From: a bacterium
GTDB lineage: Bacteria > Bacillota > Clostridia > UBA1381
Assembly: GCA_030536655.1 (NCBI GenBank)
Contig: JAUNPN010000021.1
Location: forward strand, 1-32,289
Reading direction: 5' to 3'
Length of the DNA stretch: 32,289 nucleotides
Shown here in pieces: positions 3,994 to 29,372 of the stretch (its first letter is position 1; each line of letters opens with the position of its first letter). Under the pieces are notes generated by a model. That model searched no databases and was not told the DNA's origin. It saw nothing but the letters and a program-made list of their open reading frames with translations. Both the position numbers and the translations under genes were made by a program.

Positions 3994-5088
3994 TTATATC
4001 TGCAACCCCGTTATATCAGCGTCAATATCTCCCTCAGGAACATTAACCAAGCCAATCGATTTTATATGAGCCTGCATCTCCGAATTATCAAAGCAATCTC
4101 CCTCATCAGCCGTAACCTGTACGGTTTCAATCCTCTTCTCATCAACAAAATCCGAAATCGGCTTCACTCCGTTCTTCAATACCTCCTGCGCAAAAAACCT
4201 TGCAATCAGCAGTCCGCCTATATCATTGGTATGGGTGTAATCCCTTTCTTCTCCCTTGCAGCGGAAAAAACCCCATGATTTAACCGGTCCCGCGGTTTCA
4301 AAATACTCCGTTGTACGCTTCCACATATCAATAAACGGAACATTCATTTCCTCCGCCACGCACTTCACAGCATCACGATACTCGCCCAAAAGATTTCTCA
4401 GCGTTCCGTCCGACTCAAAGATAATTCTGTTAATAGGTGAATTAAGCACCGGATACGCGCCTTTCTCTCTTGCATATTCAACAAAATATCTCAACCGTTC
4501 CGCATATCCGCCGTAAGCGTCAAGCTCCTTTATCTTCTGGTCATTATGACCAAACTCACACACAAGCACATCTCCGGGTTTTATTTTATCCTTAAATGCA
4601 GTCCAGTTCGTGCCGATAAAAGCCATTGTGCATGAGCCGGACTGCGCATGATTCGACACTGCAATTCCCGGCTTCAGCAATCCCTGCAAAGCCTGTCCCC
4701 AGCCGCAGAAGGTTTCCGAAGGCTCATACGGATACTCCGCCGGCTGATCCGTCACAGTCGAATCTCCTGCAATGTATATTGTCGGAATATCAACAGGACT
4801 TACCGCCGCAGTAGCCGTAACTGCTCCGTCACAAAGGATATATACATCAACAGTCTTAACCTCGGTATATTCTCCCCCGTCAAAATGATAATCACACACG
4901 TTGGCGTTGAACACAATATCCATGCTTTCGCCGTTTTTTATCTCGACATCGTTCCTTATGAAACGTCTGCTCTGCGAGAGAACCGAAAATACAGTGTCCT
5001 CGTGCGCCCTAATCGACAGAGTAACCTCATAATTTCCGTTCGGTACCGCCATGCTTATTAAAAGCGGTTCGTTTATGTAGCTTTTCAT
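3994..5088 (-). CDS. SGNH-family rhamnogalacturonan acetylesterase-like protein (CE12 type)
   Basis: Likely removes acetyl groups from pectic rhamnogalacturonan fragments. The SGNH landmarks are visible: AGDSTV with Ser110, the Gly in AQSGSC near 151, GHND with Asn182, and the D-x-x-H pair Asp283/His286 in DYTHTND. The first 100 residues form a beta-rich N-terminal domain, as in CE12 proteins. No signal peptide is seen, so it probably acts in the cytoplasm on imported oligosaccharides. I chose the start at 5088 because GGAG lies 6 bases before that ATG. The in-frame ATG at 5124 would add 12 residues but has no ribosome binding site. It lies upstream of the secreted GH51 gene in the same apparent operon and downstream of fbp across a palindromic repeat. 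Confidence 0.85.
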   Translation of the reverse strand: MKSYINEPLLISMAVPNGNYEVTLSIRAHEDTVFSVLSQSRRFIRNDVEIKNGESMDIVFNANVCDYHFDGGEYTEVKTVDVYILCDGAVTATAAVSPVDIPTIYIAGDSTVTDQPAEYPYEPSETFCGWGQALQGLLKPGIAVSNHAQSGSCTMAFIGTNWTAFKDKIKPGDVLVCEFGHNDQKIKELDAYGGYAERLRYFVEYAREKGAYPVLNSPINRIIFESDGTLRNLLGEYRDAVKCVAEEMNVPFIDMWKRTTEYFETAGPVKSWGFFRCKGEERDYTHTNDIGGLLIARFFAQEVLKNGVKPISDFVDEKRIETVQVTADEGDCFDNSEMQAHIKSIGLVNVPEGDIDADITGLQI

Positions 5089-5130
5089 TATATTCTCCAT
5101 TCTTATATTTTGTAAAATAGGCATATCCCG

Positions 5131-5238
5131 GTAACGCGGAAAAGAAGCAAGCAGATTGCCCTTTTGAGGAACGACGTCGCATGTTTATACTTCGAGTTCC
5201 GAAAGAGGGCAAGATGCGCAGCTTATTTTTCGCGTTAC
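5131..5238 (-). repeat. Family 3 palindromic repeat, copy 1
   Basis: The outer arms GTAACGCG and CGCGTTAC are perfectly complementary. Inner arms TTGCCC and GGGCAA enclose a third pairing, so nearly the whole 108 bp can fold on itself. It begins 2 bp after the fbp stop codon. A diverged second copy lies at 28086-28188 right at the 3' end of the MacB-like permease gene, in the same orientation relative to transcription. Shared blocks are AAAAATAAGC, GCCCTCTT and GTTCCTCAAAAG on the minus strand. No U tract follows, so it is not a classic intrinsic terminator. It could be a REP-like element, a processing or stabilising hairpin, or a small MITE. Confidence 0.7.
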
Positions 5239-5239
5239 A

Positions 5240-7195
5240 TTATTTAATTAGTCCCTTTCTGTATGCTTTTACAAGTGCCTTTAATGCGTTAATCTTCTTC
5301 TGAATTGCCTTTCCGGTGTCGGTGTCCTCAACAAGCAGACGCTTAGGTGCAAGCTCAATAACATCAAGCGTTGAATACATATCCTCGTCACGCTTAACCG
5401 CAAGAGTAACCGACTCAAACGCATCATGCGCGCTCAGAAGCAGTCCGTGGGAATTGAACAGGAGAGTATATCCCGCGATTCCGGTCTGCGGCTGATATGC
5501 CCTTGAAAGTCCGCCGTCAATAACGATAAGCTTTCCGTTTGCTTTTATCGGACTTTCACCCTTCTTTATCTTAACCGGCACATGACCGTTTATGATATGT
5601 GCAAAGTTATCCTTATCAATTCCAAACTCATCAAGAATCCTGTCGCAGGTTTCCGGATTTTCAACCAGCTTATAATACGGATCCTTAAGCTCCGTCCATA
5701 TGCTTTCGTCCTCAATAAAATACCTCTCAAACGTGGTCATTTTATTCTTGCCGTAAACAGGCGAATAACAGCCGCACCATAAGAACCATAAGAAGTCCTC
5801 ACCGTACGCCTTTTCCTCTGTACCCCGCTTTGCAAAATACCCCTCGCGCGCAATAATTTCCGCCTTATCCATCAGAGCCTTTCCGCTGACCTTGGAGCCT
5901 TTGAGCATAACCTCGCGGAAGCTTCCGTCCTCATTCATCGGCACACAGCCGTGATAGAGCAGATTATTATTCGTACTGAGATACAGGCTGCCTTTATTAT
6001 ATATAAAACGCACATGACGCTGTAATTTTTCCGAATGGAGGAAGGATGCTCTCAGTGATTCCATAAGCTCCTTTTCCGCCGGAGTAAGCTCAAACGGATA
6101 ATCCGGATTGATTGTCGGGAAGTTATTATCTTTCAGTTTATATGTTTTTCCGTCGATTTTAATTGTTCCGGTTATAAAATCAATCTTATCCAGCATAATA
6201 TGATTGTCCATCATAAATTCCGGATGGCGTTTGATAAGCTGACCCTCAAGCTTGAACTGAATAACGGAGATTGCCTTGTGCATCTTTGCCCATAGTGCGC
6301 TGTCATGACGTGAAAGCTTTACCATGTTCGGATTTCTCGGGATGAAGCATTTGCACGGGTCGCTTGCATATGTTTCCATTGCAAATACCGTAAGCGGACG
6401 CATATTGATTCCGTAACCGTCCTCCAGACAGTCAAAGTTTGAGTACTTTGTCGAAATCGAAAGCACCGTTGCAATGCACGCGAGCGAGCCTGCCGCCGCG
6501 CCCATCCACTGTACGTCATGGTTTCCCCACTGAATATCCACGCTGTGGTAGTTCTCAAGTGTATCAAGGATAATATCCGCTCTCGGACCTCTGTCAAATA
6601 TATCGCCTATAATATGCAGCTTGCCTATTGCAAGATTCTGAATCAGGTTGGAAATTTCGACAATAAACGCGTCCGACTCTCCCATCTCCACAATGGTTGA
6701 AATACAGTTATTGTAATAGCCCTCCTTATCGGAGCCGATTGCCAAATCAGCATGGATAAGCTCGTCTATCACATCGCCGAAGCAGCTCGGAAGCAGCTTC
6801 AAAATAGAGTTTCTCGTATATTTCGAAGCAATGGTGCGGCAGATTTCGATAAGGCGGTAAATCGTAATCTTATACCAGTCGTCAATATTATCCACCTCGC
6901 GCTTAATTAAGTCAAGCTTGCGCTCCGGGTAATAGATAAGAGTCGACAGAGTCTGACGGTCATGCTCGGAAAGAGTTCTGCCGTAGATCGAAGTTATCTT
7001 ATCCTTGATAACCCCCGACGCATTTTTAAGAATATGTAAGAACGGCTCATACTCGCCGTGAATATCGCTCATAAAATGTTCTGTAAGCTTCGGCAGTTTC
7101 TGACGCGACTGAAGCGATATGATCTCCGCACATGCGGAGGATATATTCGGATACTGCTCCGCAAGCAGGTTTAAATAATCGATTGAATAGTTCAT
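5240..7195 (-). CDS. fbp: Class III fructose-1,6-bisphosphatase
   Basis: Hydrolyses fructose 1,6-bisphosphate to fructose 6-phosphate in gluconeogenesis. The protein carries the calcineurin-like metallophosphatase signatures of the Firmicutes class III enzyme: DIHGEYEPF at 44-52, GDIFDRGPR at 197-205 and WGNHDVQW at 223-230. These supply the usual Asp, His and Asn metal ligands. Length is 651 residues, close to the roughly 640-670 of this family. AAAGGA lies about 9 bases before the ATG. The start codon overlaps the stop codon of a 16-codon ORF, so translation may be coupled. No promoter was recognised between the methylase gene and fbp, so at least part of its transcription may come from the RM operon upstream. 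Confidence 0.96.
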   Translation of the reverse strand: MNYSIDYLNLLAEQYPNISSACAEIISLQSRQKLPKLTEHFMSDIHGEYEPFLHILKNASGVIKDKITSIYGRTLSEHDRQTLSTLIYYPERKLDLIKREVDNIDDWYKITIYRLIEICRTIASKYTRNSILKLLPSCFGDVIDELIHADLAIGSDKEGYYNNCISTIVEMGESDAFIVEISNLIQNLAIGKLHIIGDIFDRGPRADIILDTLENYHSVDIQWGNHDVQWMGAAAGSLACIATVLSISTKYSNFDCLEDGYGINMRPLTVFAMETYASDPCKCFIPRNPNMVKLSRHDSALWAKMHKAISVIQFKLEGQLIKRHPEFMMDNHIMLDKIDFITGTIKIDGKTYKLKDNNFPTINPDYPFELTPAEKELMESLRASFLHSEKLQRHVRFIYNKGSLYLSTNNNLLYHGCVPMNEDGSFREVMLKGSKVSGKALMDKAEIIAREGYFAKRGTEEKAYGEDFLWFLWCGCYSPVYGKNKMTTFERYFIEDESIWTELKDPYYKLVENPETCDRILDEFGIDKDNFAHIINGHVPVKIKKGESPIKANGKLIVIDGGLSRAYQPQTGIAGYTLLFNSHGLLLSAHDAFESVTLAVKRDEDMYSTLDVIELAPKRLLVEDTDTGKAIQKKINALKALVKAYRKGLIK

Positions 7196-25832: not shown

Positions 25833-28061
25833 TTACTTCTCCCTTGCAATTATGATTCTGATTCTGCCGCCGGCAGACTCCTCACTGTCATAATATGCGG
25901 TGAGAGTATAATTACCTTCTATTGCCTCATTAATTGAGATTTTACTATATGATAAAACGCCTGTTTCTTTATAGACAGCCACTTCGTCACTGAGCTTATA
26001 TGTTTCGCCGTCTATATCTATCGTAGTCTGCGTAAGATTCTTTCCCGTACCGCTGTAGCTCTTGAGCCCCGATACAACCGTAAACTTACCGTTATAGCTT
26101 CTGATTTTGCACGGTGATCCGTTTCCTGCTCCGGAAATTGCAATGCTTGCATTCTGCACGCTGCCGCCGACATCAACCTTAACAGTCCGCGTGCCGGCTG
26201 TACCGGACGCCGATGAGGTTATTATACCGTAGCTGTAAATATCTCCCGTTGCCGTACTGAGAATAAGCTCATCAATTTCACCGCTGCTGTTTTTGTGCAC
26301 GTAGCTTACCTTTCCATTGCTCAGGTTCATTCCGTCAAGTCTTTGCAGATATAATCTCTTGTACACCGGCTCATCCGACGAAATTGTACCGCCGGTATCA
26401 ATAATCTTACAGTCCTCGCTTACGTCATACGAACCGATTTTCAGATTATCGGCGTCTACAACTCCCGTTATACCGCCGCTCTGTACACTTGCAATGCCTG
26501 TTCCCGAGCTTGTTGTCGTCAGCTTCACCACTCTGCCCATATAATCGCTTGGATTATTCTTCACCGGATATTCGTATTCGTCTCCGTCCGGCGCGGCTAT
26601 CCTTACATAATAGCTTGAATAATCAGTGCTGTCGTTATTGCTGAAGCTCTTTTTTCCGGTTTCCAGAACATAACCGTAATGTACATCGGTTGATGCTGCC
26701 GAGCTTGTTACTACACCGGCAACAGTCTTTCCGTCCTTTCCAAGGCAGACGGTTATTGTATCGCCATATTTGAACGGTCCGCTTGAGGACAGGTCATTAT
26801 ATGCCTCAACTCCCTCAACCGTATATTCCTTGCCTGAAACCGTTACGGTTTTCGGATTATCTCTGGACGGCGACGCCGACTGATAAACTCCGGATACCTT
26901 TGTTGAATATGCCATTACTATATTAAGCTCATCACTGTAATATATAATATCATTGGTTTTCAAGCCTGACGATGTAACCTCATTGCCGTCACGCATATAT
27001 CTCGTGTCGGAATTGGTTGCAAAGCCCGTTCCCGAAACATATTTAACAGGTCCCTTAAGACTTCCCGTACTATATATACAGTAATCAATATCCCCGTCCG
27101 CATTGTACTTTACGCTTATAACATCACCCATTTCCATCCCGTTCCTCAACGCGGAATAGGTTGACTTCGTATTTTCCTTATAGCAAACGGTATCGTCCTT
27201 AAGCTCTATTTCGCTCATCAAACCGTTCCTGTAGCCTATTACAGTATCATCGAGCACCGAATAAATTACATACTTCTCGCTTCGGCTGTCCTCCGGCACA
27301 AAGCTGAGCAAATCCTTTGAATTTATAACCGCTATATCACCGCTCAGTCCGAGATAATCACTGCTGAAGCCGTCATAAGCGTTATATTTTCCCGATGTTG
27401 TGGTCACCTTGCCGCCGCTTCCGGATGGAACCTCAGTTATTACAACATCCTCAATAATCTCCGCGTCAAATACAGAGATAAGCTTTGAATTGCTGTCTGA
27501 ACGTTCTGTATTCAAAGCGTTGTATACCAGCCTTGCCACCTGACGCCTTGTAAGCGCAGCTCCGTAATCGCTGTCAACATTGTCCAGAAGCCCAATATTT
27601 TTTGCAAGATTTACCTGTCCGTGAGGATATGACGCTCCGAAACGCGAATCCTCATACCCAAGAACGCGGAGCATCATTGTCACGGCCTCCTCAAACGAAA
27701 CAGTATCATCGGGATGGAAACTTCCGTCCACAAAGCCCTTGAACAGTCCGTTTGAGGAACCGTTTAAAATATACGGCGCCGCCCAGGAGTAGGAGGGAAC
27801 ATCACTGAACGGAGAAACGCTCATACCAAGAGCGGTTTCGTCCTTGTAGGAGGACGAATTCACCGTAATTTTCGCCATTTCAGCGCGGGACACAGTACGG
27901 TCAAGTCCATAGCTGCCGCTGCCGTCACCCTGCATAATACCGAGCGAATCAAGGAGCGGCATTATATTATCATCATTCCATGAATCTGTGTCCGCATAAG
28001 CAGCGCCTCCGGCAGCGATACACGCCGCACAGACCGCCGCTGTTATATATTTCTTTAACAT
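25833..28061 (-). CDS. Second SLH-domain cell-surface protein
   Basis: A 742-residue secreted protein. Signal peptide 1-23 (ending AYA). SLH repeats lie at about 26-80 (weak, GLDRTVSRAEMAKI), 84-136 (GFVDGSFHPDDTVSFEEA) and 140-187 (third, ALTRRQVARLVYNAL). The rest is beta-rich with many Gly/Ser/Asp turns and no catalytic motif recognised. Overall design matches the larger SLH protein at 18353-21565, so the two are likely distant paralogues serving the same envelope. GGAGG sits 6-7 bases before the ATG. The upstream gap of about 120 bp is filled by a family 3 palindrome after the MacB-like gene. No clear separate promoter was found there, so readthrough is possible. Confidence 0.85.
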   Translation of the reverse strand: MLKKYITAAVCAACIAAGGAAYADTDSWNDDNIMPLLDSLGIMQGDGSGSYGLDRTVSRAEMAKITVNSSSYKDETALGMSVSPFSDVPSYSWAAPYILNGSSNGLFKGFVDGSFHPDDTVSFEEAVTMMLRVLGYEDSRFGASYPHGQVNLAKNIGLLDNVDSDYGAALTRRQVARLVYNALNTERSDSNSKLISVFDAEIIEDVVITEVPSGSGGKVTTTSGKYNAYDGFSSDYLGLSGDIAVINSKDLLSFVPEDSRSEKYVIYSVLDDTVIGYRNGLMSEIELKDDTVCYKENTKSTYSALRNGMEMGDVISVKYNADGDIDYCIYSTGSLKGPVKYVSGTGFATNSDTRYMRDGNEVTSSGLKTNDIIYYSDELNIVMAYSTKVSGVYQSASPSRDNPKTVTVSGKEYTVEGVEAYNDLSSSGPFKYGDTITVCLGKDGKTVAGVVTSSAASTDVHYGYVLETGKKSFSNNDSTDYSSYYVRIAAPDGDEYEYPVKNNPSDYMGRVVKLTTTSSGTGIASVQSGGITGVVDADNLKIGSYDVSEDCKIIDTGGTISSDEPVYKRLYLQRLDGMNLSNGKVSYVHKNSSGEIDELILSTATGDIYSYGIITSSASGTAGTRTVKVDVGGSVQNASIAISGAGNGSPCKIRSYNGKFTVVSGLKSYSGTGKNLTQTTIDIDGETYKLSDEVAVYKETGVLSYSKISINEAIEGNYTLTAYYDSEESAGGRIRIIIAREK

Positions 28062-28085
28062 ACTAATCCTCCATATATACTAACT

Positions 28086-28188
28086 GTAAAAGGAAGCAAG
28101 CCGCTTCCTCCCTCTTTTGAGGAACGCAGACGTATGTATGCTCTCTTTTCCGGAAGAGGGCGGAATTCACAGCTTATTTTTCCTTTAC
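28086..28188 (-). repeat. Family 3 palindromic repeat, copy 2
   Basis: Read on the minus strand it starts GTAAAGGAAAAATAAGC and ends GCTTGCTTCCTTTTAC. The outer arms pair (GTAAAGG/CCTTTTAC, allowing one bulge), as do the inner arms (CCCTCTT/AAGAGGG). Compared with copy 1, arm sequences differ but pairing is kept. The first bases overlap the stop codon of the permease gene. No U tract follows. Confidence 0.7.
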
Positions 28189-29372
28189 TCAAATTTAAGT
28201 GCGTCTATCGGATTTAACTGTGCGGCCTTTCTTGCCGGAAGAAATCCGAATGCCACACCTATTCCTACGGATACAAAGAACGCAACGGCTACCGCTCCGA
28301 CAGACGGCACAACCGCCATATCAAGAACCTTTCCTGCCGCAAAGGATACAACGCATCCCAAAATAATTCCAAATATACCGCCCATGCAGCTCACTGTTCC
28401 GGCTTCAATTACAAACTGCATCATAATATGCTTATGCTTTGCGCCAAGAGATTTCCTTATACCGATTTCTCTTGTTCTCTCAGTTACCGATACAAGCATG
28501 ATATTCATAATTCCTATGCCGCCGACAAGAAGTGAAATTGCCGCTATCGCGATAAGCACAGTCCCCATTGAATCCATCATGCTCGACATATTGTCAATCA
28601 TAGAAAGCATGGAGGTTACGGTATAATAGTCCGAATCGCCTATCTTATCCTGCAAAAGCACCTTTAACGACGTCACCGCCGAGGTTACAACATCCTCGTT
28701 CACTGCGGAAACCGTATAGCTGCCTATTGTTGATGTTACGCTTGCTTTCGCTGCCGTCGTATACGGAATATATACAACGTCATCCGCCGACGACTGGGTT
28801 GAATCCTCTGTCTGCTCCAGAACTCCGACTATCTTATACGGAACACCGTTTATTTTAAGCTCCTTATCCAATGCCGCAGATGCACTGTTGAAGAAGTACA
28901 GAGCCTGATACGTTCCTATAACACAGGTTTTAAGCTCTCTTTCACAGTCAATATACTGCAAAAAACGTCCAAAAGACATCTCTAAATTCTTAATATCCGC
29001 ATACGACTCCGCAACGCCGGTGCAGGATGAGGTTATCGAGTCATCCCCCGAATCCGAGGTCTTAAGCGTGCCGCTGAGCGTAACGTTCGGCGAAACATTT
29101 GTAAAAAGCTGAGTATTACTGTCAATCCAGTCAAACATTTCCTGAGGTTCAACCTTCTTGGTGGTTCCGCGCGAGCGGATGCTTACCGTAATAGTATTCG
29201 TACCCATCTCCTGAAAGGTGCTTGTAACCTCGCCGGTAAGTCCGTTCATTACGCTTACAAGAATAATAACCGCCGCAATACCGATGATTATGCCGAGCAT
29301 TGTCAGGAATGAACGCATCTTGTTATTGATTATACTCGAAAGCGCCATAGAAAAGCATTTACGAAATCCCAT
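28185..29372 (-). CDS. MacB-like ABC transporter permease
   Basis: The membrane part of a MacAB/YknXYZ-type exporter. One N-terminal helix (about 21-43, FLTMLGIIIGIAAVIILV) is followed by a large extracytoplasmic domain (about 44-265) and three C-terminal helices with the FtsX pattern. TERTREIGIRKSLGAK, just after the second helix, is the typical coupling segment. The end LPARKAAQLNPIDALKFE is the classic MacB C-terminus. Length is 395 residues, normal for Gram-positive stand-alone permeases. The ATG overlaps the ATPase stop codon by one base (TGATG). The substrate (a peptide, antimicrobial or lipid) cannot be read from sequence. Confidence 0.93.
   Translation of the reverse strand: MGFRKCFSMALSSIINNKMRSFLTMLGIIIGIAAVIILVSVMNGLTGEVTSTFQEMGTNTITVSIRSRGTTKKVEPQEMFDWIDSNTQLFTNVSPNVTLSGTLKTSDSGDDSITSSCTGVAESYADIKNLEMSFGRFLQYIDCERELKTCVIGTYQALYFFNSASAALDKELKINGVPYKIVGVLEQTEDSTQSSADDVVYIPYTTAAKASVTSTIGSYTVSAVNEDVVTSAVTSLKVLLQDKIGDSDYYTVTSMLSMIDNMSSMMDSMGTVLIAIAAISLLVGGIGIMNIMLVSVTERTREIGIRKSLGAKHKHIMMQFVIEAGTVSCMGGIFGIILGCVVSFAAGKVLDMAVVPSVGAVAVAFFVSVGIGVAFGFLPARKAAQLNPIDALKFE

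Follow-up and report, generated by a model that had tools for sequence, protein, structure and literature searches.

A miniature palindromic element that probably inserts at ribosome-binding sites and restores a Shine-Dalgarno sequence in a family of Clostridia

The window analyzed here, a stretch of 32,289 nucleotides, belongs to a clostridial genome (G000) with an assembly of 3.49 Mb in 266 contigs that is 98% complete, and all element counts given for it are lower bounds. It contains two hairpin-forming palindromes on the minus strand. Copy A (5131-5238; read directly as GTAACGCGAAAAATAAGC...CTTTTCCGCGTTAC) starts 1 nt beyond the stop codon (5240-5242) of the minus-strand gene fbp, encoding a Firmicute fructose-1,6-bisphosphatase (5240-7195; PF06874, E = 2.5e-289). 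On its 3' side follows a minus-strand tail (5089-5130) ending in GAATGGAG, which was read directly and compared with the tail consensus of subfamily S2. This tail carries the Shine-Dalgarno (SD) sequence GGAG at 5095-5098, 6 nt ahead of the ATG at 5086-5088 of the next minus-strand gene, which codes for a GDSL-like lipase/acylhydrolase (3994-5088; PF13472, E = 1.9e-11) and has the element tail as its SD-start region. The longest open reading frame of this gene (3994-5124) starts at 5124 and so within the tail of copy A; the ATG behind GGAG is the more likely start. Copy B (28086-28188, minus strand; GTAAAGGAAAAATAAGC...GCTTCCTTTTAC), a divergent S2 copy, encloses the stop codon (28185-28187) of a minus-strand gene for a MacB/FtsX-like permease (28185-29372; PF12704, E = 1.2e-32; PF02687, E = 9.7e-20). 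Its minus-strand tail (28062-28085), again read directly against the consensus, carries ATATGGAGGATTA, which corresponds to the right end of S2. It includes the SD GGAGG at 28068-28072, also 6 nt from the ATG (28059-28061) of the following minus-strand gene, which encodes a protein with S-layer homology domain (25833-28061; PF00395, E = 1.8e-15). Both copies are, beyond their position at upstream stop codons, situated just 5' of the SD and start codon of a co-oriented gene, and both were assigned to S2 from their arms and tails.

The original prediction described the two palindromes as sharing sequence blocks, starting at or near an upstream stop codon, lacking a U tract and having exchanged GTAACGCG/CGCGTTAC in one copy against GTAAAGG/CCTTTTAC in the other, all of which was confirmed. 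The predicted minus-strand folds reach -42.6 kcal/mol for copy A (z = -8.0) and -38.3 kcal/mol for copy B (z = -4.7), and none of 200 dinucleotide shuffles was equally stable in either case. No T run follows either hairpin on its 3' side, and on this ground an intrinsic terminator was rejected.

The two copies are members of a large family. About 100 copies, often in tandem with a spacing of approximately 111 or 135 bp, are present in the 3.5 Mb of G000, and some of them are near-identical to each other. The exact block GTTCCTCAAAAGRG occurs only in the two window copies and in two one-mismatch matches, of which one belongs to a divergent copy from contig C126; the family became visible only by blastn with a whole copy. 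Copy A gave 57 matches at E <= 10, 53 of them below 1e-4, while a copy of the commoner subfamily gave at least 80 matching pieces from the 40 candidates scored. The motif GATAAGCNGCGCATCTTGCCG was found 96 times with up to three mismatches (reversed control: 0), and an iterated HMM applied to the G000 regions around matches yielded 124 non-overlapping matches in 88 clusters, some of them partial or at contig ends. The unit measures about 135-150 bp and consists of an imperfect hairpin of about 105 nt and an asymmetric 3' tail with an SD. Of the two main subfamilies, S1 can be written as GTTTGGAAAAAGATAAGC...CTTTTCCCAAAC followed by the tail GCATTGGTGAAAGGAGTTCGGATTATAA, and S2 as TTAACGTG...CACGTTA followed by a tail with a small GC-rich hairpin and AATGGAGGATTA.

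That the fold is maintained by paired changes of the arms, as had been proposed from two copies, is strongly supported by an alignment of 26 diverse copies, be it in the form of RNA or of single-stranded DNA. In this alignment 92.7% of the cells pair and 19 of 26 pairs show compensatory changes; since the alignment also served to derive the structure, the latter is somewhat favoured. The covariation score of 0.442 compares with 0.184 for shuffles, a test inflated by the kinship of the copies, and with at most 0.145 for slid structures, a control in which kinship is retained. The further genomic copies, whose absence had been named as the outcome speaking against the idea, are numerous, and their arm changes are overwhelmingly paired. 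The proposed covariance-model search of relatives (model R1, which scores copy A, itself a member of the training set, highest in the genome) revealed copies in 55 of 70 genomes of the family. When whole 5' regions were folded, no clear sequestering of either SD was found, and the z-scores became mostly weaker with flanks added.

The position of the copies is fixed with regard to the downstream gene. Among G000 clusters with both neighbours on the same strand, the element is oriented with the genes in 40 cases and against them in 6, according to approximate, simple ORF calling. An ORF start within 90 nt beyond the 3' end (ORFs of at least 80 amino acids, or 50 if running off the locus) was found for 43 of 78 copies in G000, for 38 of 39 in genome G006 and for 35 of 42 in other genomes, compared with 12, 5 and 11, respectively, in a mirror control; these counts and the SD counts below rest on simple ORF and motif rules. 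A minority of the copies has no start codon after them. In 20 of 48 intact S1 clusters the first ATG begins exactly 5 nt past GGATTA. In well-preserved copies the native SD of the downstream gene comes first, the element follows directly on its 3' side, and the element tail provides a second SD by the start codon. Most S1 copies in G006 read (native SD)..AA/GTTTGG...GGTGAAAGGAGTTCGGAATATAAnnATG, and typical S2 copies there read GGAGGA/TTAACGTG...GCGGCATGGAGGATTAnTATG, with the slash marking the left junction. An SD-like 4-mer is present in the last 10 nt before the 5' end of 17/25 S1 copies in G006 (3-9/25 in earlier bins) and of 13/14 S2 copies (0-1/14). In further genomes, the last 12 nt contain an SD-like motif in 31 of 56 copies (4-10 in earlier windows) and GGAG in 20 of 56 (0-3). 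In G000 this excess is weak (18/63 against 6-13), which could reflect decay of native SDs that have fallen out of use.

Filled and empty sites were compared at the argD-argF junction within one genus, using the joined flanks as search query. Genome G049 has a filled site (L236) with an S2 copy of 140 bp following GTTTTGGAGGA, while G046 has an empty one, GTTTTGGAGGAAATATAAAATG, in flanks 96.5-97.5% identical to those of G049; seven further genus mates show a plain SD-spacer-ATG arrangement. In G049 the sequence at the right junction is GGAATGGAGGACTAAAATG, with an SD again beside the argF start and a difference of about 3 nt from the empty site between SD and ATG. The left junction is GGAG(GA), as in most S2 copies, and GGAG is thus found at both junctions of the argF insertion, either as target duplication or as a carried SD. 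This single close filled/empty pair involves an S2 copy, and the S1 comparison runs across genera. At folD, G000 has two units, whereas 13 family relatives as well as other members of the order show a plain SD followed by ATG there. Between atpG and atpD of G046 (L251) and G049 (L276), a copy cuts into the final codons of atpG and provides this gene with a new stop, and the other genus mates are without it. No long target duplication was found, and exact repeats of at least 5 nt (5/48 versus 2.3 in shuffled pairings, p = 0.06) were not significant. The SD of argF has been occupied independently in two genera, by the TTAACGTG-type copy of G049 and by a copy of a third, AAGTCTG-type subfamily in G009 (L331).

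The close filled/empty pair and the copy-number variation demonstrate mobility. Collectively, our data are best explained by a miniature mobile element, non-autonomous and aimed at ribosome-binding sites, each insertion of which restores an SD, a reading to which we assign a probability of roughly 0.8. The element would insert in the orientation of a gene and directly behind its native SD, by recognition of the SD region itself and through an enzyme acting in trans. Start codon and native SD would be parted by the inserted hairpin, the SD of the element coming to lie beside the start, and judged from position translation probably begins from the element's SD. The palindrome may be kept because folding, as single-stranded DNA or RNA, is needed for movement. 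A more tentative idea, which we hold with rather less than even confidence, is that the SD itself is the target core of a transposition or recombination system, whose enzyme would connect a GGAG-type core in the element with the SD of whichever gene it meets. In that case, each insertion would re-place a well-spaced SD and be near-neutral, a safe-harbour strategy inside operons.

It is unlikely, though the best of the alternatives, that insertion occurs untargeted in transcribed intergenic DNA and that selection retains the SD-carrying, gene-facing copies. Copies with no gene start on their 3' side do exist in G000, and landing between SD and ATG could be survivable only with an SD in the tail. 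However, under selection alone many copies would be expected ahead of the native SD or in the gaps of convergent gene pairs, whereas 38 of 39 copies in G006 have a gene start 3' of them and the native SD is mostly within about 10 nt of their 5' end. We consider it very improbable that the repeat is a cis-regulatory RNA of the 5'-UTR, riboswitch-like or a protein-binding leader, kept for gene control, despite the covarying fold, the constant orientation and the fixed site before the start codon. The downstream genes have no pathway in common (they code for OTCase, IGPD, CoaE, pyruvate kinase, GalT, ATP synthase beta, RsmB, NusB, isopropylmalate/isocitrate dehydrogenase and FolD), orthologues in close relatives are without the element, and tandem arrays occur. 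R1 matches are distributed over 14 of the 17 genera of the family, and genomes of a single genus may have none or at least 55 of them. Moreover, no Rfam match at gathering score was obtained in the window, and focused scans gave two chance-level matches (E 0.8-1.0). Hardly any credit is left for a 3'-end element of the upstream gene, acting as mRNA stabilizer, RNase processing site or terminator: many copies in G000 start on or close to the stop codon of an upstream gene with the same orientation and the strong hairpin might have such an activity alongside mobility, but in 10 G000 clusters the downstream gene is co-oriented and the upstream gene opposite, the fixed distance is that to the downstream start and not to the stop, and the U tract is absent. 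The upstream 3' end as defining context, as originally assumed, was thus not upheld, the copies being mobile insertions with a fixed relation to the downstream SD and start.

Returning to the proposed SD-targeting mobile element, the question arises how it relates to known systems. The suggestion of a REP-like repeat or self-folding MITE pointed in the right direction with regard to mobility, while defining features of both were lacking. The pneumococcal BOX, RUP and SPRITE sequences are MITE-like small repeats of bacteria (PMC3049150). They resemble the present element in being shorter than 200 bp, palindromic, RNA-folding, non-autonomous, present in about 100 copies per genome and patchily distributed between related species (PMC3049150). 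The present element differs from them in its SD-start target, the SD in the right tail, the gene-following orientation and the absence of a clear target duplication. It also does not have terminal inverted repeats at both ends, as expected for a MITE, because the left arm is terminal and the right arm is followed by the 28-35 nt tail of the unit. REP elements, which are associated with RAYT/Y1 proteins, are likewise interspersed intergenic palindromes and often in tandem, but the unit here is about 135 bp long with an SD tail, and the Y1 transposase (PF01797) is absent from G000. REP/RAYT membership was rejected for this absence and because the R1 scan of 12 canonical Y1 loci found no element copies. 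Elements of the IS200/IS605 type have asymmetric ends with hairpins, insert 3' of a short fixed motif without long duplication and possess a target-like right end. The large left and small GC-rich right hairpin of S2, GGAG at both junctions and the lack of a clear duplication would be in line with this general picture. In contrast stand the missing copies at the canonical Y1 loci and the missing trans-acting Y1 protein in G000 as well as G049, on account of which derivation from this group was rejected. By analogy, the asymmetry may reflect single-strand insertion of the IS200/IS605 type, a recombinase with a GGAG-like core being an equally plausible candidate. The presence of Y1 among the family genomes does not track element copy number, and of eight loci with more distant Y1 proteins one, in G006, contained an element copy, which lies 1.3 kb downstream of the RAYT-like gene with other ORFs between. 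A search for an autonomous parent gave isolated matches to the 5' end and tail in G000, which proved to be truncated, recombined or tandem remnants enclosing no transposase. A mobilizing enzyme did not come to light in these searches. Since for each of the MITE, REP and IS200/IS605 families a defining feature was looked for and found missing, the element is placed outside them and filed as a new variant among the small palindromic mobile repeats. In the literature, searched in open-licence papers only and hence weak evidence of absence, no SD-targeted, SD-carrying repeat was found.

Small palindromic repeats occur in many bacteria, and their landing sites are usually viewed as any tolerant intergenic DNA. 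The present repeat, in contrast, lands on a functional signal required by most genes and brings a substitute for the signal it displaces, which may permit its spread through operons with little harm. The argF gene offers a natural experiment, since among close relatives its SD is either natively spaced or followed by a 140-nt insert that carries a new one. The element also matters for annotation, because it can supply upstream stop codons and mislead the calling of downstream starts, and in the G000 assembly contigs often end in its copies.

The relatives that have names are mostly Clostridia MAGs from ruminant gut. When the class was sampled evenly, G329, from another family of the class, was the sole genome outside the family that was rich in copies (at least 12 S2 copies, L313-L323, mostly in the arrangement tail-SD-start), and four other genomes had one weak match each. 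The copies in G329 suggest occasional horizontal spread, with contamination as the alternative. Distant tandem relatives (GAATTTGA..AAATAAGCGGCGCATCTTGCAC...) were observed in a further family (L326 and L327; G240 and G280). In G000, a chimeric copy on contig C126 (L004, 1481-1603) has an S1-like tail (CCCAAACGCATTGGTGCAAGGAGTTCGGATT) within an S2-like hairpin, resulting from either recombination or nested insertion. Finally, mini-copies reduced to the outer arms and the tail (GTTTGGAAAAAGATAAGCACCGCTTCTCTTTTCCCAAAC plus tail) are located beside full copies at L015 (1620-1692) and L060 (1620-1692).
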